A stretch of 64,000 nucleotides of DNA from Cupriavidus malaysiensis (lineage in GTDB: Bacteria > Pseudomonadota > Gammaproteobacteria > Burkholderiales > Burkholderiaceae). The stretch covers positions 620,001 through 684,000 of the forward strand of contig NZ_CP017754.1 in assembly GCF_001854325.1 (NCBI RefSeq). The letters are read 5' to 3'. Positions 8,483 through 21,223 of this stretch are shown one piece after another (position 1 is the stretch's first letter; each line of letters starts with the position of its first letter). The notes under the pieces were generated by a model. The model had not been told where the DNA came from. It saw nothing but the letters and a program-made list of their open reading frames with translations, and ran no database searches. The translations under genes and the position numbers were made by a program.

Positions 8483-8605
8483 CCCCTCTCCCACTTGTGG
8501 GAGAGGGGCTGGGGGAGAGGGCGGGCGCTGGCGCGAAGTGAATGCCGTCGTGCTGGCGAAGGCCGGCCCTCTCCCCCGACCCCTCTCCCGCACGCGGGAG
8601 AGGGG
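8483..8605. repeat. Two REP-like GC-rich palindromes
   Basis: Two perfect hairpins of the same family lie in the gap after the YbaK-like gene. The first (8483-8508) has 12-base arms CCCCTCTCCCAC with a two-base loop. The second (8580-8605) has arms CCCCTCTCCCGC with a two-base loop. Copies of the same CCCTCTCCC core occur at 62134-62157. They look like the dispersed extragenic palindromes common in GC-rich beta- and gammaproteobacteria. Neither is followed by a T run, so they are poor intrinsic terminators. Besides these and the hexamer array the 337-base gap (8453-8789) holds no gene. Confidence 0.8.
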
Positions 8606-8616
8606 AGGCCACACTC

Positions 8617-8718
8617 GCAACTGCAACTGCAACTGCAACTGCAACTGCAACTGCAACTGCAACTGCAACTGCAACTGCAACTGCAACTGCAACTGCAACT
8701 GCAACTGCAACTGCAACT
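8617..8718 (+). repeat. (GCAACT)17 hexanucleotide tandem array
   Basis: Seventeen uninterrupted identical copies of GCAACT cover 8617-8718, 71 bases upstream of the GTG start of the DUF1289 gene. The array is perfect, which points to recent slippage or active expansion. Six is a multiple of three, so copy-number change would not shift a frame but would alter promoter-to-gene spacing. On the plus strand the array is in frame with the downstream gene and open upstream to 8478, but no good ribosome site supports a fused protein. Confidence 0.98.
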
Positions 8719-8789
8719 GCGATCGCGCCTGTGACAGCCGCCGCCATCGTCGCGGCCGGCCGCGCAGCCGCCTACCCTCAGGAGAATCC

Positions 8790-10856: not shown

Positions 10857-13016
10857 TCAGAAGGTCGTGCGCAGGCCCACCTTGACGCTGCGTCCCGCCA
10901 GCGGCGCGATGTCGCGCAGCAGGGAGGTCGCATTGCGCGCGTCCTGGTTGGTCAGGTTATCGCCGCGCAGGTAGACCAGGGTCTGGGTGCCGGCCAGCTT
11001 GAACTTGTAGCTCAGCGCGAGGCCCAGCAGCGTATAAGCCTCGGTCGGCGTGTCGTTGGCCGGCACGCGGGTCTGGCGCGCGGCATAGGTGACGTCCACG
11101 CGCGCGTTCCAGGGGCCCGCGCCGTAGATCAGCGCGCCGCCCAGGCGCAGCGGCGCCAGGCGCGGCAGCGGCTCGCCGGTGTCGCGGTTCTTGCCGCGTA
11201 CCAGGTCGACGCGGCCTTCCAGGTCGAGGCTGTCGCCGGCGAAGGCGAGTCGCTCGGCCAGGCGCGTGCGGCCTTCCGCCTCGAAGCCATACAGGGTGGC
11301 GGGCACGCCTGCGTAGCGGAACTCCGGCAGGGCGCCTGCGGTGCCCGCGGCGACCACGTCGCCCGCCTCATCACGTGCATGGCCGGTGGCCTGCAGCGCC
11401 AGGTAGTTGGCGAAGCGGTTGTAGTAGCCGGACAGGCTGGCGCTGTGGGGCCCGTTCTTGAAGCGCACGCCGAGGTCCAGCGAGGTGGCGCGTTCCTTGG
11501 CCGCGTTCGGGTCGCCGACTTCCCAGGTGCCGGTGGCCACGTGCGGGCCGTTGGCGAACAGCTCGTAGAAGGTCGGCGCGCGCTCGGTATAGGCCAGGTT
11601 GCTGCTCAGCGACCAGGCCGGCGTCAGCTTGTAGAGCAGGCCGGCCGACGCGCTGGCGGCGTTGAAGCTGCGGCTGGCGTCGCTGAAGCGCTCGTTGCCG
11701 TTGGCACTGGATCTGACGCGGCTGTGGTCGAGCCGGCCGCCCAGGTCCAGCTTGAGGTCGCCGCCGGCGGCCAGGGGCAGTTCCTCGAACACGAACAGGG
11801 CCGCGTTGTCGGTGTCGGTACTGGGCACGAAGGCTTCCTCGCCCAGCGCCGAGAAGCGGGTCTGGCCGAACTGGGCGCCGACCACGCCGCGCAGCGGGCC
11901 GATGTTGCCATGGCGTGCTTCCACGCGCGCATCCCAGCCGCGGTTGCGGAAGATGGTGCCGGTCGCGCCGTGCTCGATTTCCTTGTGCTCGTACTCGGTG
12001 TGGCTGAAGCTCGCCTTGACCGCCTCCAGCCAGCCGCCGGTGGCGCCGGACAACTCGCGTGCCTCGCCGGCCAGGGCGAAGCGGTCCTGCTTCATCTTCA
12101 GGCGCACGTCGGACTCGGCGGGGGTACCGTATTCGTTGCGGTAGGCGCTGTAGTTGGCGCCGACGAAGCCATCGGCCCAGGTATAGGCGCCGCCCAGCGA
12201 GCCGCCGTCCTGCTGGGCGCTGGTATTGGGCAGGCGGCCGTAGGCCTCGCTCTCGCCTTCGGCGAGGGGCTGGCTGGCACGCAGCGCGGCGCTGCGCGCG
12301 AAGCCGGGAATGCGCTGGTCGCTGGTCTTGCGGGCAAAGGCATCGGCGTGGATGGCGAAGCGGCCGTTGCCGGCCTCGAGCAGGGCGCTGGCGCCGCGCC
12401 CCTGGTCGCCGCCGGCGGTGGCGCTGGTGTCGAGCGCGCCGCCGACGCCTTCCACCGGTGCCTTCGGAATGCGGTTGTCGATCACGTTGACCACGCCGCC
12501 GATGGCGTTGCCGCCGTACATCAGCGCGGCCGGGCCGCGTACCACTTCGATCCGCTCGGCCACCAGCGGGTCGACCGGCACCGCGTGGTCATAGGACAGC
12601 GAGGAGGCGTCGACGGTGCTGCCGCCGTCCTGCAGGATCTTGATGCGGTCGGCGTCGAGGCCGCGGATCACCGGCCGGCTGGCATTGGGTCCGAAACCGG
12701 TCGAGGAGACACCGGGCAGGCCATCCAGGGTCTGGCCCAGCGTGCTGCCCTGGCGCAGCGTCAAGGCATCGCCCTGCAGCGCGCTGGCGGGCGCGACCAT
12801 CTCGTTGAGTTCGCTGCCGAGCGGGTTGGCGGTGACCACCACGGTCTTCAGGGTGTTGCGCTCGGCGCTTTCCGCGGCGTCCGCGCTTTCGGCGGGAGCG
12901 CCTTGCGCATAGGCGCCGCCCGAGGCGAGCAGGGCGGTGAGCGCGGAGATGGCGCGCAGGGCGGAGCGTGAGGGGCGCCGCGAGGCGTTCTTCTTGTGGG
13001 CTTGCAGGTTGGGCAT
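10857..13016 (-). CDS. TonB-dependent outer-membrane receptor, probably zinc-related
   Basis: A 719-residue outer-membrane receptor with a signal peptide (SALRAISALTALLASGGAYA), a TonB-box-like KTVVVTANPLG, a plug domain (LDGLPGVSSTGFG; RIEVVRGPAALMYGGNAIGG) and a beta-barrel that ends in the terminal phenylalanine (VGLRTTF). Substrate cannot be read from sequence, but the gene lies downstream of a COG0523 GTPase operon near zur, as with ZnuD-type zinc receptors. The ATG at 13016 was chosen because the longer frame adds an Arg-rich, unconserved 25 residues. A 168-bp element with terminal inverted repeats lies 63 bases upstream, between it and the rest of the zinc operon. Confidence 0.88.
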   Translation of the reverse strand: MPNLQAHKKNASRRPSRSALRAISALTALLASGGAYAQGAPAESADAAESAERNTLKTVVVTANPLGSELNEMVAPASALQGDALTLRQGSTLGQTLDGLPGVSSTGFGPNASRPVIRGLDADRIKILQDGGSTVDASSLSYDHAVPVDPLVAERIEVVRGPAALMYGGNAIGGVVNVIDNRIPKAPVEGVGGALDTSATAGGDQGRGASALLEAGNGRFAIHADAFARKTSDQRIPGFARSAALRASQPLAEGESEAYGRLPNTSAQQDGGSLGGAYTWADGFVGANYSAYRNEYGTPAESDVRLKMKQDRFALAGEARELSGATGGWLEAVKASFSHTEYEHKEIEHGATGTIFRNRGWDARVEARHGNIGPLRGVVGAQFGQTRFSALGEEAFVPSTDTDNAALFVFEELPLAAGGDLKLDLGGRLDHSRVRSSANGNERFSDASRSFNAASASAGLLYKLTPAWSLSSNLAYTERAPTFYELFANGPHVATGTWEVGDPNAAKERATSLDLGVRFKNGPHSASLSGYYNRFANYLALQATGHARDEAGDVVAAGTAGALPEFRYAGVPATLYGFEAEGRTRLAERLAFAGDSLDLEGRVDLVRGKNRDTGEPLPRLAPLRLGGALIYGAGPWNARVDVTYAARQTRVPANDTPTEAYTLLGLALSYKFKLAGTQTLVYLRGDNLTNQDARNATSLLRDIAPLAGRSVKVGLRTTF

Positions 13017-13078
13017 GGCTCGCAATCGATAGGGGCCGCGCCGGCGCGGTGCCGGCGCGGAGCGACGCGCGGGGCAAG

Positions 13079-13246
13079 TGTCCTGAATCACAAATTCGTT
13101 GACTCGGTGTGTCCTGAGTCCGTCGATAAGCCATGCGATGCGCCGTCACGAATGCCCGCAAGGCTCCAGCCTTGCTGCGCGTCGTTCCTGGCCTCGAACG
13201 TCTTCTCTACAGACCGGGCGATCCAACGAATGGAAGAATCAGGACA
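13079..13246. mobile_element. MITE-like element with 23-bp imperfect terminal inverted repeats
   Basis: The ends 13079-13101 and 13224-13246 are inverted copies, 18 of 23 positions matching: both outer ends read TGTCCTGA and both inner ends read ATTCGTTG. Near the centre is a perfect hairpin, GCAAGGCT-CC-AGCCTTGC (13158-13175). The element is 168 bp, AT-richer than its surroundings and has no convincing gene. No clear target duplication is seen. A third copy of TGTCCTGA lies at 13110-13117. It may be a MITE or a deletion remnant of an insertion sequence. The rest of 13017-13348 holds no gene. Confidence 0.65.
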
Positions 13247-13348
13247 CTAGGCGCCGCCGGGCGCGTGCGGGTATGCGACGGGCCCGGCCGGCGGCGGTCC
13301 GCGGGTCGGTGGATGCTGGTGGAGGCGGGGCCGCTCGGGCCCCGGGGA

Positions 13349-13789
13349 TCAGGCGAGTGCGAGCGCTGCCGGTGGGGCGCGCGGATGGAAGGCTGTGAGG
13401 GGGGCGAGGTCGGGCCGGGCCGCCTCGGCGCTGGCCGGCGCGTGCGGGTGCCCGTGCGCGAGCACGCCGGGCAGGGCCAGGCTGCAATGCGTGTCGGCCA
13501 GGGCCGCCGCATCGAAGAGGACACAAGAGTGGCCGCCGCCCCGCAGAGCGAGCGGGTCGCGCGGGCCTTCATCGAGGGTGCCGTCGGCCAGCGGGTCGGC
13601 CAGCGGGTCCGACAGCAGGCCGGCCGCAGCCGGCGCCGCTTCGGCGGCCGCCAGCAGCGGCTGGTTCTGCAGGCCGCCGTGCAGGACGCGGTGCGTCAGG
13701 CCGGCATGCTGGGCCAGCAGCAGGCACAACGAGAGCCAGAGCGCGTGCGCCAGGCTCGGCCGGCGCGGCGCGTGCCGTTCAGTGCGCAT
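13349..13789 (-). CDS. Small exported His-rich protein of the zinc operon, function unknown
   Basis: A 146-residue protein I do not recognise with certainty. A hydrophobic stretch near residues 14-26 ([19 protein letters not shown]) looks like a signal peptide or anchor. The mature part has scattered metal-type ligands: [16 protein letters not shown] and LAHGHPHAP. It starts inside the end of the COG0523 GTPase gene (11-base overlap, ATG at 13789), so it is translationally coupled to it. The context suggests a periplasmic zinc-binding or receptor-associated role, which is inference. Small Cys/His proteins of this kind accompany TonB receptors and metal GTPases in other betaproteobacteria. Confidence 0.65.
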
Positions 13790-15077
13790 GCCCGCAGTCG
13801 CAGCGGTCCGGATCGTGACCGCAGTCGTCGTCGCCGTCGTCGCCGTCGAGGCCGTCGAAGGTGTCGTCCCAGGCGGGGAAGGGGTCTTGCCAGGCAGCCC
13901 AGGCGGACGGGCCGGCGGCCATCTCGGCATCGTCCAGCAGGCAGGCGTCGAGCAGGGCTTCCAGCGCGGCGCGGTCCATGTCCTGGCCGATGAAGACCAG
14001 TTCCTGGCGGCGGTCGCCGAAGCGTGCAGGCTGGCCGTCCTCGTCCAGCATGTCGGCCTCGATGGCGGCGCGGGCCTCGTCCTCGGCCGGCCATTCGGCC
14101 GGATCGACGGCCGCCCACCAGGCACCGGCGCCGCCATGGCGGCAGACGCCGCCGGCCTGGCTCCAGCTGCCTGCGGTGTCCATGCGGCCGGCCAGCCAGA
14201 AGAAGCCCTTGGAGCGCAGCACGTTGCCATGCTCGCGCAGCCAGTCACCATGGATCAGCGCGGCGAAGCGCTGTGGATGGAAGGGGCGGCGGCGGCGGTA
14301 GACGAAGCTGCCGATGCCGTAGGCGGCGGTCTCGGGCACATGCTCGCCGCGCAGTTCGGCCAGCCAGCCGGGGGCCGCGGCGGCGGCCTCGAAATCGAAG
14401 CGGCCGGTGTCGAGCAGGCGCGCCAGCGGCACCTGGCCGAAGGAGGCGGCCACGATGTCGGCGCGCGGGTTGAGGGTGTGCAGGATGCCGGCCAGGCGCT
14501 CGCGTTCGGCTGCGCTGACCAGGTCGATCTTGTTCAGCACGATCACGTCGCAGAACTCGACCTGCTCGATCAGCAGGTCGACCACGGTACGGTCGTCGTC
14601 TTCGTCGCGCGCCTGGCCGCGGTCGCTCAGGTAGTCGGCTTCGTTGAAATCGCGCAGGAAGTGGGCGGCATCCACCACCGTGACCATGGTGTCGAGGCGG
14701 GCGACCTGGTCCAGCGTGGTGCCGTGCTCGTCCTCGAAGGTGAAGGTCTCGGCGATCGGCAGCGGCTCGGCCACGCCGGTGGACTCGACCAGCAGGTAGT
14801 CGAAGCGGCCTTCGCGCGCGAGCTTGCCGATCTCGGTCAGCAGGTCCTCGCGCAAGGTGCAGCAGATGCAGCCGTTGGACAGCTCGATCAGCCGCTCGCC
14901 GGCCTGGGCCACGCGTCCGTCGCCGACCAGGCGCGCATCGATGTTGACGTCGGCGAGGTCGTTGACGATCACAGCGACCCGCTTGCCCTCGCGGTTGGCG
15001 AGCACGTGGTTGAGCAGGGTGGTCTTGCCGGCGCCGAGGAATCCGGACAGCACGGTGACGGGCAGGCGATCGGCCAT
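13779..15077 (-). CDS. COG0523 (CobW-like) zinc-responsive GTPase
   Basis: A 432-residue G3E GTPase. P-loop GFLGAGKT is at residues 12-19, the metal motif CICC is in [15 protein letters not shown] near residue 68, VESTGVAEP follows, and NKID is near 180. The C-terminal 40 residues are rich in Asp, Cys and His (ending DRCDCGHAH), a likely metal-binding tail. COG0523 proteins of the ZigA/ZagA/YciC kind are induced in zinc starvation and deliver metal to selected enzymes. A 13-bp palindrome at 15110-15122, shared with the zur promoter, lies 33 bases upstream. The gene heads an operon with the small exported protein and perhaps the TonB receptor. Confidence 0.9.
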
Positions 15078-15109
15078 GACAAGCGGAGCGCCGCGTGGCG
15101 CTGGTTATT

Positions 15110-15122
15110 GCAACAAAGTTGC
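15110..15122 (-). promoter_or_regulatory. Candidate Zur operator of the COG0523 operon
   Basis: The palindrome GCAACAAAGTTGC lies 33-45 bases upstream of the GTPase start, in the right place for a repressor site. It matches GCAATTTAGTTGC at 18053-18065, upstream of zur, at 10 of 13 positions, with identical GCAA/TTGC arms. No other gene in the window has such a site in its promoter by eye. Zur binding is inferred from the shared site and the type of gene controlled. Confidence 0.55.
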
Positions 15123-15261
15123 GACTGTAACAGAAAGCCGGCCCGACGCACAGCCGGGCCCAGGCCTCCATCTTAGGCCGGTGTCGATGACACCACAAAG
15201 ACAGAATGACTGCCCGCCGCCGGCCAGGTGGCGGGTGGCGGGCGCGCAGGGCGGCCCGCAC

Positions 15262-15291
15262 AAAACAAAACGGCCCGGCAAGCCGGGCCGT
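15262..15291 (-). terminator. Rho-independent terminator of dksA
   Basis: On the minus strand a perfect stem ACGGCCCGGC with a two-base loop (15270-15291) is followed by TTTTGTTTTG. It lies about 40 bases beyond the dksA stop and should separate dksA from the COG0523 operon downstream. Confidence 0.85.
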
Positions 15292-15332
15292 GCTCTGGCG
15301 GGGGCGCGCTGCCCGCCGGAAGCCGGCAATGC

Positions 15333-16019
15333 TCAGTCGCCGAACAGCTTCTGGCGCAGTTCGCGGCGCTGCTGGGCTTCCAGCGACAGCGTGGCGGTGG
15401 GGCGCGCCAGCAGGCGCGGCACGCCGATCGGCTCGCCGGTTTCCTCGCACCAGCCGTACTCGCCGGATTCGATGCGGACCAGGGCCTGCTCGACCTTCTT
15501 CAGCAGCTTGCGCTCGCGATCGCGGGTGCGCAGCTCGAGGGCATGCTCTTCCTCGATGGTGGCGCGGTCGGCCGGATCCGGCACGATGACCGTTTCGCGC
15601 AGGTGCTCCGTCGTCTGGTCGGCGTTCTTCAGGATGTCGTCGCGCAGCTGTTCAAGGCGATGCTTGAAGAAAGCGAGTTGCGCTTCATTCATGTAATCCT
15701 TGTCGCCCATCTTCAGGATTTCAGCTTCAGTCAGAAGTTTATTGCTGCTCATGGTTGCTGCTGATTCTCTTGTTGATGCGACCGGCGGGGCGGGGCTCCG
15801 CTCGGGTGCAGTGTCCGGCTGCTTGCGCGGCGTGGACGTTTCACTCTGGCTGGCTGCAGTCTTGCTGCTTCGCGCGCCTCCCTTGGACCCGCTTGCAGCG
15901 GCGCGCGCCGTGTCACTGCGGGATCCCGATGCCGCCTTGCGGGACGGCGCCTCTATCGTCTCGGCCGCAACGCTAGCTGTCTTGCTGCGGCTTTCCTTCG
16001 TTTTTGTTGCGGCTGACAT
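15333..16019 (-). CDS. dksA: DksA-family RNA polymerase-binding factor with degenerate zinc finger
   Basis: A 228-residue protein. The last 140 residues are DksA: coiled coil with the tip motif DPADRA intact, ELRTRDRERKLLKKV, then the C-terminal globular region YGWCEETGEPIGVPRLLARP. Canonical DksA has four zinc cysteines; here the first pair reads C-E-E-T and the second S-L-E-A, so only one cysteine remains. Such forms do not need zinc, as reported for Pseudomonas DksA2. The first 85-90 residues are a disordered Ser/Ala/Lys-rich extension. The ATG at 16019 has GAGAGG nearby. It works with ppGpp at rRNA and amino-acid promoters. A -10-like TACAAT lies at 16204-16209 (minus strand). Confidence 0.85.
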   Translation of the reverse strand: MSAATKTKESRSKTASVAAETIEAPSRKAASGSRSDTARAAASGSKGGARSSKTAASQSETSTPRKQPDTAPERSPAPPVASTRESAATMSSNKLLTEAEILKMGDKDYMNEAQLAFFKHRLEQLRDDILKNADQTTEHLRETVIVPDPADRATIEEEHALELRTRDRERKLLKKVEQALVRIESGEYGWCEETGEPIGVPRLLARPTATLSLEAQQRRELRQKLFGD

Positions 16020-16329
16020 GGGACACCTCTCTTTCGCGTCGATCTGGGATGACGCTTGCCGGTGCCCCGGGGCGGAATCAGGCGGTCTCCGCACGAAGCA
16101 CTGCGACCGCGCCTGGCGACCCACCTCGTACCGACGACGGACGCCGTCCTGCCGAACTCGGGTGGCGAATTCCAAGCCACGCCGCCCGCACTAAATCCGA
16201 CCTATTGTACTTGAACAAATTTTTCCGAGATACGGGGGAAAACCGGTCGATTTTGGCGGTCTTTTCCGATCCAGACCCCAAATCCCACCCGAAAGGGGGG
16301 CATGCGGGGCCGGACCGGCGGGCCGGCGC
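16020..16329. other. Intergenic region upstream of dksA
   Basis: This 310-base gap separates the dksA start from the end of the second COG0523 GTPase; both are on the minus strand. It contains an AT-rich core (16195-16265) unlike its surroundings, with a minus-strand TACAAT at 16204-16209, likely the dksA promoter. I see no palindrome of the candidate Zur type and no gene. No clear intrinsic terminator for the GTPase was found. Confidence 0.5.
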
Positions 16330-17430
<1,101 letters not shown>

Positions 17431-17490
17431 TGTCGTTCTCCGTGGAAGGGGAAAGGCGCGGCGCCGCACGGGCGGGCGGTGCCGCCTCGT

Positions 17491-18021
17491 TTATTCGGGT
17501 TGCGCCGGCGCTGCCTGCCGCGCAGGTTCGGTGCGCGCGCCGCATTCGGCGCAGATGCCATTGACGGTCAGCTCGACGTGTTCGACGGCGAAGCCGCTGG
17601 GCACGCGCGGGGCGTCCAGCCCGGCGGGCACGCTGCCGTCGTCCAGGCAGAAGGTGCGGTCGCAGCGCGTGCAGTGGAAATGGCTGTGCCGGCGATGGAC
17701 CTGGGCGCGCGCCGCCTCGTGCTCGACCAGGCTGAAGCGGAAGACGCGGTCGTTGCCGGCGCGCTTCTGCGCCAGGCCTTGTTCGACCAGCCAGTCGAGC
17801 ACGCGGTAGACGGTCACGCGGTCGATGGCTTCGCCGGTGGCGGGAATGCGGTCGAGCACCGCCTGGTGGGTCAGGGCTTCGTCGCTGCCGATCAGGCAGG
17901 CCAGGATGCACAGGCGCGGCTGCGTCACGCGCGCGCCCAGCCGCCGCAGGCGTTCGCGCGCGTCGTCCAGGGCGGCTGCGGCCGGCGCGCCGGCCGGCCA
18001 GGTCTCGGAGGGGTGGGTCAT
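17491..18021 (-). CDS. zur: Zur, Fur-family zinc uptake regulator
   Basis: A 176-residue Fur-family repressor. The winged-helix part includes LGARVTQPRLCILACLI and DRVTVYRVLDWLVEQGL. The dimer domain has HRRHSHFHCTRCDRTFC and, at the end, NGICAECG, giving two CXXC pairs for the structural zinc. The SHFHC pattern and the neighbours (COG0523 GTPases, TonB receptor, DksA variant) favour Zur over Fur or PerR. The gene starts with ATG at 18021. A palindrome at 18053-18065 lies 32 bases upstream, suggesting autoregulation. The frame fits the usual 150-170 residues. Confidence 0.85.
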   Translation of the reverse strand: MTHPSETWPAGAPAAAALDDARERLRRLGARVTQPRLCILACLIGSDEALTHQAVLDRIPATGEAIDRVTVYRVLDWLVEQGLAQKRAGNDRVFRFSLVEHEAARAQVHRRHSHFHCTRCDRTFCLDDGSVPAGLDAPRVPSGFAVEHVELTVNGICAECGARTEPARQAAPAQPE

Positions 18022-18052
18022 GACCCGATTTAACCATAGCCCCCTGGGTGAT

Positions 18053-18065
18053 GCAATTTAGTTGC
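18053..18065 (-). promoter_or_regulatory. Candidate Zur operator upstream of zur
   Basis: GCAATTTAGTTGC, within the larger near-palindrome ATGCAATTTAGTTGCAAT (18051-18068), lies 32-44 bases upstream of the zur start. It shares its arms with the site at 15110-15122. It also lies 115 bases upstream of the divergent hydrolase gene. Zur binding is inferred, not seen. Confidence 0.55.
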
Positions 18066-18179
18066 AATTCTGGCGGGGCTGGCCATGCCTTGGCTTCCGT
18101 CGCGGCGAATGCGCCTATCATCGCCAACAAGAGGCCGGCGTCCCGCCGCGGGGCGCCGCCGCCAGGGAGGAGACCCGAG

Positions 18180-19085
18180 ATGCTCAACGACGCGAGCGCG
18201 CTGCTGTATCCCAACTTCGAACCCTTGCGCCTGAAGGTGGGCGGCGCGGAGATCGCCGGCGTGCGGGGCGGCTCCGGCCCGCCGCTGCTGCTGCTGCATG
18301 GCTTTCCCCAGAGCCACCTGATCTGGCACAAGGTGGCGCCGGCGCTGGCCGACCACTTCACCGTGATCGCCACCGACCTGCGCGGCTATGGCAGCAGTTC
18401 GGCGCCGCCCGGCGGGCCCGGGCATGCCGCCTACAGCAAGCGCGCCATGGCGCAGGACCAGGTCGCGCTGATGGCGGCGCTCGGCTACCCGCGCTTCGCG
18501 CTGTGCGCCCACGATCGCGGCGCGCGCGTGGCGCACCGGCTCTGCATGGACCATCCGGAGGCGGTCAGCCGCCTGATGCTGCTCGATATCGCCCCCACGC
18601 TGGCCATGTACGAGCGCACCAGCATGGCCTTCGCCGCCGCCTACTGGCACTGGTTCTTCCTGATCCAGCCAGAGCCCCTGCCGGAAACCCTGATCAATGC
18701 CGAGCCCGACTTCTTCCTGGCGCGCTGCCTGGGCCTGGGCATGCGCCAGGGCGGTCCCGAGCCGTTCGCCGCCGATGCCCTGGCCGCCTATGGCGCAGCC
18801 ATGCGCGAACCGGCGCGCGTGCATGCCATGTGCGAGGACTACCGTGCCTCGGCCGGCGTCGACCTGGAGCACGACCGCGCCGACCGCGAGGCCGGGCGCC
18901 GGCTGGCGCCCCCGCTGCGGGTGCTGTGGGGCGAGCACGGCGTGGTCGCGCGCTGCTTCGAGCCGCTGGCGCTGTGGCAGGAAGTCGCGCAGGACGTCAG
19001 CGGGCAGGCGCTGCCCTGCGGTCACTACGTGCCGGAGGAGGCCGCCGAGGCACTGGCCGGGGAGATGCTGGCCTTCTTCCGTTGA
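18180..19085 (+). CDS. Alpha/beta hydrolase of the fluoroacetate/haloacetate dehalogenase type
   Basis: A 301-residue alpha/beta hydrolase. The nucleophile motif is HDRGAR, D112, with R113 and R116; the acid is D136 (LLDIAPT) and the base H282 (CGHYVPEE). H157 and W158 (YWHWFF) and Y221 (EDYRA) match the fluoride-binding trio of the Rhodopseudomonas fluoroacetate dehalogenase at a constant offset of two residues (D110, R111, R114, D134, H155, W156, Y219, H280, from memory). The oxyanion HGFPQSH and DLRGYG are also typical. One pocket tryptophan of that enzyme (W185) appears to be glycine here (G187). GGAGGAG lies seven bases before the ATG. Substrate is inferred. Confidence 0.8.
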   Translation: MLNDASALLYPNFEPLRLKVGGAEIAGVRGGSGPPLLLLHGFPQSHLIWHKVAPALADHFTVIATDLRGYGSSSAPPGGPGHAAYSKRAMAQDQVALMAALGYPRFALCAHDRGARVAHRLCMDHPEAVSRLMLLDIAPTLAMYERTSMAFAAAYWHWFFLIQPEPLPETLINAEPDFFLARCLGLGMRQGGPEPFAADALAAYGAAMREPARVHAMCEDYRASAGVDLEHDRADREAGRRLAPPLRVLWGEHGVVARCFEPLALWQEVAQDVSGQALPCGHYVPEEAAEALAGEMLAFFR

Positions 19086-20686: not shown

Positions 20687-21223
20687 ATGGAACAGTATCA
20701 CGGCACCACTATTCTCAGCGTACGCCGCGGCAACCAGGTCGCGCTCGGCGGTGACGGGCAGGTCACGCTCGGCAACGTCGTCATGAAGGGCACGGCGCGC
20801 AAGGTACGCCGTATCTACAACGGCAAGGTACTGGTCGGCTTCGCCGGCAGCACGGCCGACGCTTTTTCCCTGCTCGACCGTTTCGAGGCCAAGCTGGAGA
20901 AACACCAGGGCCAGCTGACGCGCGCTGCCGTGGACCTCGCCAAGGACTGGCGTTCCGACCGCGCCCTGCGCCGCCTGGAGGCCATGCTGATCGTCGCCGA
21001 CCGCGACACCACGCTGGTGCTGACCGGCAACGGCGACGTGCTCGATCCCGAGGGCGGCGTGGCCGCGATCGGCTCGGGCGGCTCCTACGCCCAGTCGGCG
21101 GCCAAGGCCCTGGTCGAGAATACCGACCTGGCCCCCAAGGACATCGTGGAGAAGTCGCTCACCATCGCCGGCGAACTCTGCATCTACACCAACACCAATT
21201 TCGTCATCGAGACGCTGGAATGA
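20687..21223 (+). CDS. hslV: HslV, proteasome-like peptidase subunit
   Basis: A 178-residue peptidase subunit of the HslUV (ClpQY) ATP-dependent protease. The start [14 protein letters not shown] means the catalytic threonine is not residue 2 as in E. coli but residue 7 (the first Thr after HG), so a short propeptide must be removed; this is usual in betaproteobacteria. GDGQVTLG and [14 protein letters not shown] are the family's structural motifs. HslU follows after 41 bases. A TATAGT at 20573-20578 may be the -10 box; I could not see a convincing heat-shock consensus. Confidence 0.96.

Follow-up and report, generated by a model that had tools for sequence, protein, structure and literature searches.

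Six adjacent genes on the minus strand of a 64,000-nucleotide stretch of Cupriavidus malaysiensis DNA (the window; positions 620001-684000 of contig NZ_CP017754.1 in a 7.95 Mb genome) very probably form a zinc-starvation locus of zur, cobW2 and cobW3 built round a housekeeping dksA, with two Zur operators and with dksA outside the response. The block (10857-18021) comprises zur, cobW2, dksA, a zigA-type COG0523 gene at the position of cobW3, a gene for a small exported-looking protein (small) and a gene for a ZnuD-like TonB receptor (tonB), and it is the Cupriavidus version of a zinc-starvation locus of Cupriavidus metallidurans CH34: the island is real, conserved and already known. New here are the intact as against the reduced state of CobW3, the latter in 45/60 genomes, and the tie of the small protein to the receptor gene. 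Zur-dependent expression in this organism is a prediction from the sequence and from the analogy with CH34.

A first-pass annotation had described these six genes (10857..18068) as a block that acts as one unit to import, route and spare zinc. All six were located where it had put them and in the strand order that it gave. Import and routing held up, given conserved Zur-box-like sites, a ZIP transporter gene behind the same site, and published Zur control or induction by ethylenediaminetetraacetic acid (EDTA) of the CH34 counterparts; sparing did not, and a single unit is doubtful. The features of the block are as follows.

10857..13016, minus strand: ZnuD-like TonB-dependent outer-membrane receptor (PF00593, PF07715; best solved structure ZnuD 4rdr)
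13078..13248, no strand given: element like a miniature inverted-repeat transposable element (MITE) between small and tonB (23 genome matches, itself included)
13349..13789, minus strand: small protein with an N-terminal membrane or signal helix, HxxxH, HxC and a C-terminal RAPP (alignments; AlphaFold2)
13779..15077, minus strand: zigA-type COG0523 GTPase, cobW3 position (NF038288 ZigA; Walker A, CxCC, ESTG and NKxD intact)
15108..15122, plus strand: Zur-box-like site TTGCAACAAAGTTGC before zigA/cobW3 (exact match, genus conservation)
15270..15291, minus strand: terminator-like hairpin and T-run after dksA (terminator scan of the window)
15333..16019, minus strand: dksA, one Cys, ~90-residue N-terminal extension (TIGR02420)
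16203..16232, minus strand: conserved promoter-like block TATCTCGGAAAAATTTGTTCAAGTACAATA before dksA (60-row alignment; putative function)
16330..17430, minus strand: cobW2, COG0523 GTPase with NGCICC and an internal His/Asp-rich stretch (PF02492, PF07683)
17491..18021, minus strand: zur, FUR family, orthologue of CH34 Rmet_0128 (PF01475, 42.5 bits; gene order kept in the genus)
18053..18067, minus strand: Zur-box-like site TTGCAACTAAATTGC before zur and also before a divergent hydrolase gene (exact match, genus conservation)

Conservation of the gene order

The genus set comprised 60 genomes including the window's own; a search with the zigA-type protein matched in 60/60, and the locus was taken from the other 59 and compared across the six genes. 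The complete set of six genes is found in order and on a single strand in 54/60 genomes, one of them (L172) showing the genes in pieces with frame breaks, and the remaining six (L114, L117, L120, L124, L136 and L154) miss solely genes at contig ends. Because 54 genomes hold all six genes in order and the other six are cut by contig ends, the neighbourhood is not due to chance, and conservation of gene order, which the first-pass annotation had proposed as a check, was borne out within Cupriavidus.

The first 11 of 80 named loci (L034-L044, titled Cupriavidus or Burkholderiaceae) show the identical order as far as their contigs extend; the small gene of L037 and L041 fell below the search cut-off and was seen in the matching genus genomes. 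Ralstonia-type loci (L045-L050) carry zur-cobW2-dksA-zigA as far as their contigs extend in 6/6 cases, and within that reach no match to small or tonB was found beside the other genes in any of the six. The other 63 of the 80 named loci are mostly without the block. Some named loci and genus genomes are identical contigs, and the two sets are not independent.

Zur and its putative operators

The zur product matches the CH34 copy (L150) at 74%, and Rmet_0128 is called zur in CH34 (PMC13192273). Its score lies under the NCBIfam Zur equivalog cut-off (35.7 vs 167 bits), and its nearest solved structures are Fur (1.8e-7) and Zur (2.8e-6). The name Zur, which the first-pass annotation had used as well, consequently stands on membership of the FUR family, on the adjacent site and on apparent orthology to Rmet_0128/zur, but is not backed by NCBIfam or by the nearest structures.

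The genome contains four exact copies of TTGCAACNNNNTTGC, which precede zur, zigA, a ZIP transporter gene (L012) and a second pair of exported-protein and TonB-receptor genes (L013). The site before cobW3 is present in 60/60 genus genomes, 55 times exactly and five times with one mismatch. Before zur, the best match has zero, one or two mismatches in 6, 29 and 21 of the 56 readable genomes, the matches in L160 and L171 being dubious and not looking like the same site. No site with two or fewer mismatches was found before dksA in 60/60 genomes (best match 3-5 mismatches), nor before cobW2 in 53/53 readable genomes (best match 4-7 mismatches).

The gap between dksA and cobW3 holds a perfect stem and a T-run in 59/60 genomes, a count made without a shuffle control, and terminator-like sites in the window number 11 as compared to 4.8 expected. 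The separate sites together with the hairpin suggest separate transcription units: the block is probably not one unit, and a single transcription unit was rejected on these two features.

A housekeeping dksA inside the block

The dksA product scores 144.8 bits to TIGR02420 (cut-off 115.5) and has a single Cys, the four-Cys finger being missing. No second full copy was found in the genome, in which the other matches are two weak ones with 35-36% identity over ~80 residues; the one of these that was read has four Cys and is not a full DksA. An order-wide sample gave 61 DksA matches in 57/60 genomes, and among the 30 best-scoring, which were read, a single Cys is found in 28 (own genome included), two Cys in one and four in another. 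The 31 further matches, with 41-48% identity, were left unread, and about half of the genomes have just that kind or the four-Cys one. Judged by these sequences, the one-Cys DksA is a common housekeeping form in the order, but not the sole form.

The conserved block upstream of dksA ends in TACAATA and would supply a promoter of its own; its conservation was likewise scored without a shuffle control, and a sigma-70 scan found no promoter-like site. The protein also carries an extension of ~90 Ser/Ala/Lys-rich residues before the usual start (15752-16019), which is covered by the genus matches.

The first-pass annotation had combined these genes into one zinc-starvation unit, in which a Cys-poor DksA replaces a zinc-finger DksA at low zinc. 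There is precedent for this: DksA paralogues without the four-Cys finger have been described downstream of putative Zur sites, e.g. in Pseudomonas (PMC2770081), and the window DksA has the missing zinc finger in common with them. In addition, dksA lies inside the block in 60/60 genomes, the window scan placed no terminator-like site between cobW2 and dksA, which makes read-through from cobW2 into dksA possible, and dksA1 appears among the CH34 Zur regulon genes tabulated in a 2018 review (PMC6103462), which adds that just four of 11 computed boxes were verified. However, the window DksA differs from the Pseudomonas-type paralogues in being the sole full DksA found and in having no Zur-box-like site, one Cys is the usual state among the high-scoring matches, and the terminator-like hairpin separates dksA from zigA in nearly all genomes. 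In a CH34 folE double mutant with CobW3 up 3.9-fold, moreover, DksA, encoded between cobW2 and cobW3, was not regulated (PMC13192273). The annotation was right about the scarcity of Cys, but the replacement of one DksA by another is unlikely. DksA is probably not a zinc-sparing paralogue because it is the sole full DksA found in the genome, and that candidate was rejected on this ground together with the missing site and the hairpin behind the gene. On this evidence, dksA is in all likelihood lodged in the block and not part of the Zur units. In this group, dksA should not count as zinc sparing merely for being Cys-poor and adjoining zur.

Comparison with CH34 and a proposed mechanism

The zur-cobW2-dksA-cobW3 locus of CH34 with Rmet_0123 (operon Op0032r, PMC11647595) has the same six genes in the same order and on one strand (L150), and both Zur-box-like sites are present there with one mismatch each. 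L150 also has small between cobW3 and the receptor gene, and no mention of small was found in the available parts of the CH34 literature. Differences concern CobW3, which keeps CxCC and the G3 region in the window and is without CxCC in CH34, the MITE-like element before tonB, and the finding of no CobW1-type second zigA, the latter two both being traits of the window genome.

In CH34, zur, cobW2 and cobW3 are derepressed at low zinc, and CobW2 is a zinc store (PMC11340326, PMC12632275). Rmet_0123 is placed downstream of zur-cobW2-cobW3, and its RNA rose 10.7-fold in CH34 and 23.2-fold in AE104 under EDTA, which is not specific to zinc and starves cells of iron too. CH34 is also without ZnuABC and uses ZupT under Zur (PMC12632275). 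Similarly, PF01297 (ZnuA) had no match in the window genome, in a search whose control matched in 11/14 genomes and in which ZnuB and ZnuC were not searched. The ZIP transporter gene behind an exact site (L012:603-1559; PF02535, 127.4 vs 35.1 bits) may be named zupT by analogy with CH34.

Taken together, zinc starvation may be met as follows. With ample zinc, Zur would occupy an operator upstream of zur-cobW2 and a second one upstream of zigA(cobW3)-small-tonB. Zinc shortage would open both units, as has been shown in part in CH34. The ZnuD-like receptor would then bring zinc across the outer membrane, and the ZupT-type ZIP transporter, encoded elsewhere in the genome behind the same site, would replace ZnuABC in moving it through the inner membrane. 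CobW2 would store zinc as it does in CH34, the zigA-type GTPase would hand it to client proteins, and dksA would be read from its own promoter, outside the response.

Besides the possible read-through into dksA and the listing of dksA1, several observations weigh against this arrangement. A CH34 study assigns zur-cobW2-cobW3 and the receptor gene to a single operon, and CobW3 protein was unchanged in EDTA-treated CH34, in which CobW2 was up 2.2-fold. The non-coding gap between small and tonB has a site with one or two mismatches in 10/54 readable genomes (L131, L132, L134, L135, L137, L138, L141, L143, L146 and L148), all of which carry a 16-residue deletion in CobW3; tonB may have its own, perhaps a third, operator in these genomes. 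The window gap is without such a site (best match 4 mismatches), and the MITE-like element lying in it could uncouple tonB here. Finally, the four exact sites compare to 2.3 expected genome-wide under a first-order model and are not significant alone, allowing one mismatch yields 43 sites as compared to 24 when the pattern is reversed, and relaxing the pattern brings no enrichment within the window (9 matches vs 14.8 expected). The site count alone is weak, and the weight is carried by position and conservation.

COG0523 GTPases and the fate of CobW3

Both COG0523 proteins of the block contain NGCICC, in line with the CxCC that the first-pass annotation gave them, whereas the His/Asp tail that it gave to both is found just in the zigA-type protein, as a Cys/His/Asp tail, and is Asp-rich there (13 Asp and 3 His in the last 42 residues); the His/Asp stretch of the CobW2-like protein is internal. 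CobW2 reached 327.7 bits to NF008578, for which the cut-off is 361. The zigA-type protein passes the curated ZigA cut-off (NF038288, 639.9 vs 600 bits) with Walker A, CxCC, ESTG and NKxD intact, and a ZigA-type role is predicted for it. With ZigA (NF038288; Acinetobacter link PMC10563805) it has in common the score over the cut-off, CxCC and a Zur-box-like site upstream, and it differs in its place in a zur-cobW2-dksA block with a ZnuD-like receptor and in its Asp-rich tail.

Across the genus, NGCICC is kept in the CobW3 of 15/60 genomes (own included), and ESTGVAEP in 14 of these 15. Another 21 genomes have a CobW3 shortened by 16 residues, with the site reading GCEAT or similar, and in 24 genomes ~40 residues are missing and the site is gone too. 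CxCC is lost in 45/60, CH34 included, along with the switch region, and is kept in 6/6 Ralstonia-type loci. Walker A is present in 60/60 CobW3 proteins, and His, Asp and Cys abound in each of the 59 tails printed (L172 was not scored). In a tree built from CobW2, DksA and Zur and rooted on the Ralstonia-type loci, the first branches carry intact CobW3 and the reduced forms lie deeper; this tree was made by a quick method and has 23 open forks, with the window itself in an open fork and L120 on a long branch. The three CobW3 states need at least two changes on it, and one loss of CxCC is possible, though not shown.

CH34 CobW3 has been reported to lack both GTPase activity and the GCI/mCC site (PMC11340326). 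Because 15/60 genus genomes and 6/6 Ralstonia-type loci keep CxCC and 45/60 genomes have lost it, this GTPase-dead CobW3 looks derived. In the work on CH34, CobW3 figures as a GTPase-dead protein that binds zinc and tunes import, while the genus tree suggests a derived state; intact and reduced CobW3 in the same locus offer a natural comparison by which the contribution of GTP hydrolysis to a COG0523 protein could be judged. No statement on CobW3 in other species was found in the available parts of the C. metallidurans literature on CobW3, and such a comparison may be in print. Decay of CobW3 explained by a second zigA was tried and rejected: full-length second copies of zigA type occur in 6/60 genomes, and the split between 3/15 with intact and 3/45 with reduced CobW3 gives no clear link.

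A third full COG0523 protein of the genome (C2:1602375, L020) adjoins CobN-type (PF02514) and ChlI-type (PF01078) genes and looks like a cobalamin CobW.

The TonB receptor

The best solved relative of the receptor is ZnuD (4rdr, E 5e-57; next 8e-15), with which it shares plug and barrel. It differs from ZnuD in scoring far under the NCBIfam cut-off (NF038289, 313.1 vs 950 bits) and in being paired with a small exported protein. A receptor for another metal or for a siderophore would make the zinc reading wrong for this gene, and the low NCBIfam score, the matches to heme and siderophore models and the iron starvation that comes with EDTA all speak for it. I nevertheless regard this as improbable, given the wide margin by which ZnuD is the best solved relative and the position of the receptor gene downstream of a zigA-type gene that lies behind a Zur-box-like site.

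The MITE-like element before tonB has the ends GTGTCCTGA/TCAGGACAC and an RNA fold z-score of -4.4, and none of the other 59 genus loci, five of which are cut before tonB, contains a match to it. The 13-mer TGATTCAGGACAC occurs seven times in the genome, two of them in gaps between small exported-protein and TonB-receptor genes (the other gap is at L021, about 8595-8646). It is found at both small/TonB-receptor loci that have an exact Zur-box-like site, be it by chance or by function.

The small exported protein

In the window, small and zigA share 11 nt at the start of the former and the stop of the latter; for other genomes the choice of start is uncertain. The protein looks exported, as the first-pass annotation had it, but is not the His-rich protein of that description: it has 11 His in 146 residues here and 6-10 in the 19 relatives printed. 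Its conserved motifs are HRxxH and HxCxLFD, with H33, R34, H37, H87, C89, F92 and D93 kept in 60/60 genomes and a C-terminal RxPP in 59/60. It matched no Pfam or NCBIfam family, and DUF2946 (PF11162) was rejected as an identity, with no Pfam match at E<=5 and the protein absent from the three genome matches at E<=10. AlphaFold2 gave one confident helix (residues 13-38) and low confidence for the rest (mean predicted local distance difference test score, pLDDT, 60; predicted template modelling score, pTM, 0.26); the modelled helix fits a signal or a membrane anchor.

In a family-wide sample, the small protein matched in 26/150 genomes: 14/14 of the genus, 8 of group g10, 3 of g12 and 1 of g11, the last being a fragment. 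Loci were read for 4/8 of g10 and 2/3 of g12. All four g10 loci run cobW2-dksA-site-small-tonB, with an exact site directly before small and no zigA between. In the two g12 loci, a receptor with 32-34% identity lies after small, and no site was seen at one mismatch or fewer. The small protein travels with the TonB receptor gene in three genera, and it accompanies the receptor behind dksA whether cobW3 is there or not. Its probable role is that of a metal-binding partner of the receptor, bound to the membrane or located in the periplasm, and it is a concrete candidate for the passage of zinc through the periplasm in the absence of ZnuA.

These loci also bear on the idea that the neighbourhood is kept just for a flanking housekeeping dksA region and that the zinc genes have no functional link, for which an hslV-like gene (PF00227) ending at 21223 and the missing small and tonB matches in the Ralstonia-type loci could be cited, but which is hardly tenable beside the site before cobW3 in every genome, the exact site directly before small in g10 and the EDTA induction of Rmet_0123.

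More speculatively, the small protein may found a new family of membrane-anchored metal-binding proteins under Zur control that partner ZnuD-like receptors and form the periplasmic zinc relay of bacteria with a ZIP importer and no ZnuA, with CobW3 being a zinc GTPase on its way to a GTPase-dead zinc binder within one genus; this is put forward as a tentative proposal that has the odds against it.

A second exact site (C1:4376172) lies before genes for a small exported Cys/His protein and a TonB receptor (L021 8250-10914). The small protein of L021 shares HxxxH, a Cys and SRxPP with the window family, and the receptor there has no ZnuD match in NCBIfam.

Flanking features

Outside the coordinates of the first-pass annotation, one gene is a candidate extra member of the locus.

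18180..19085, plus strand: divergent alpha/beta hydrolase sharing the zur operator region (PF00561)

The hydrolase gene adjoins zur in 42/60 genomes. The haloacetate dehalogenase gene dehH2 is listed in the CH34 Zur regulon (PMC6103462), and B. cenocepacia has an alpha/beta hydrolase that is strongly induced when zinc is depleted (PMC10563805); identity with the window hydrolase is not established for either. Further along the window, a perfect array of 17.3 copies of GCAACT occupies positions 8617-8720.

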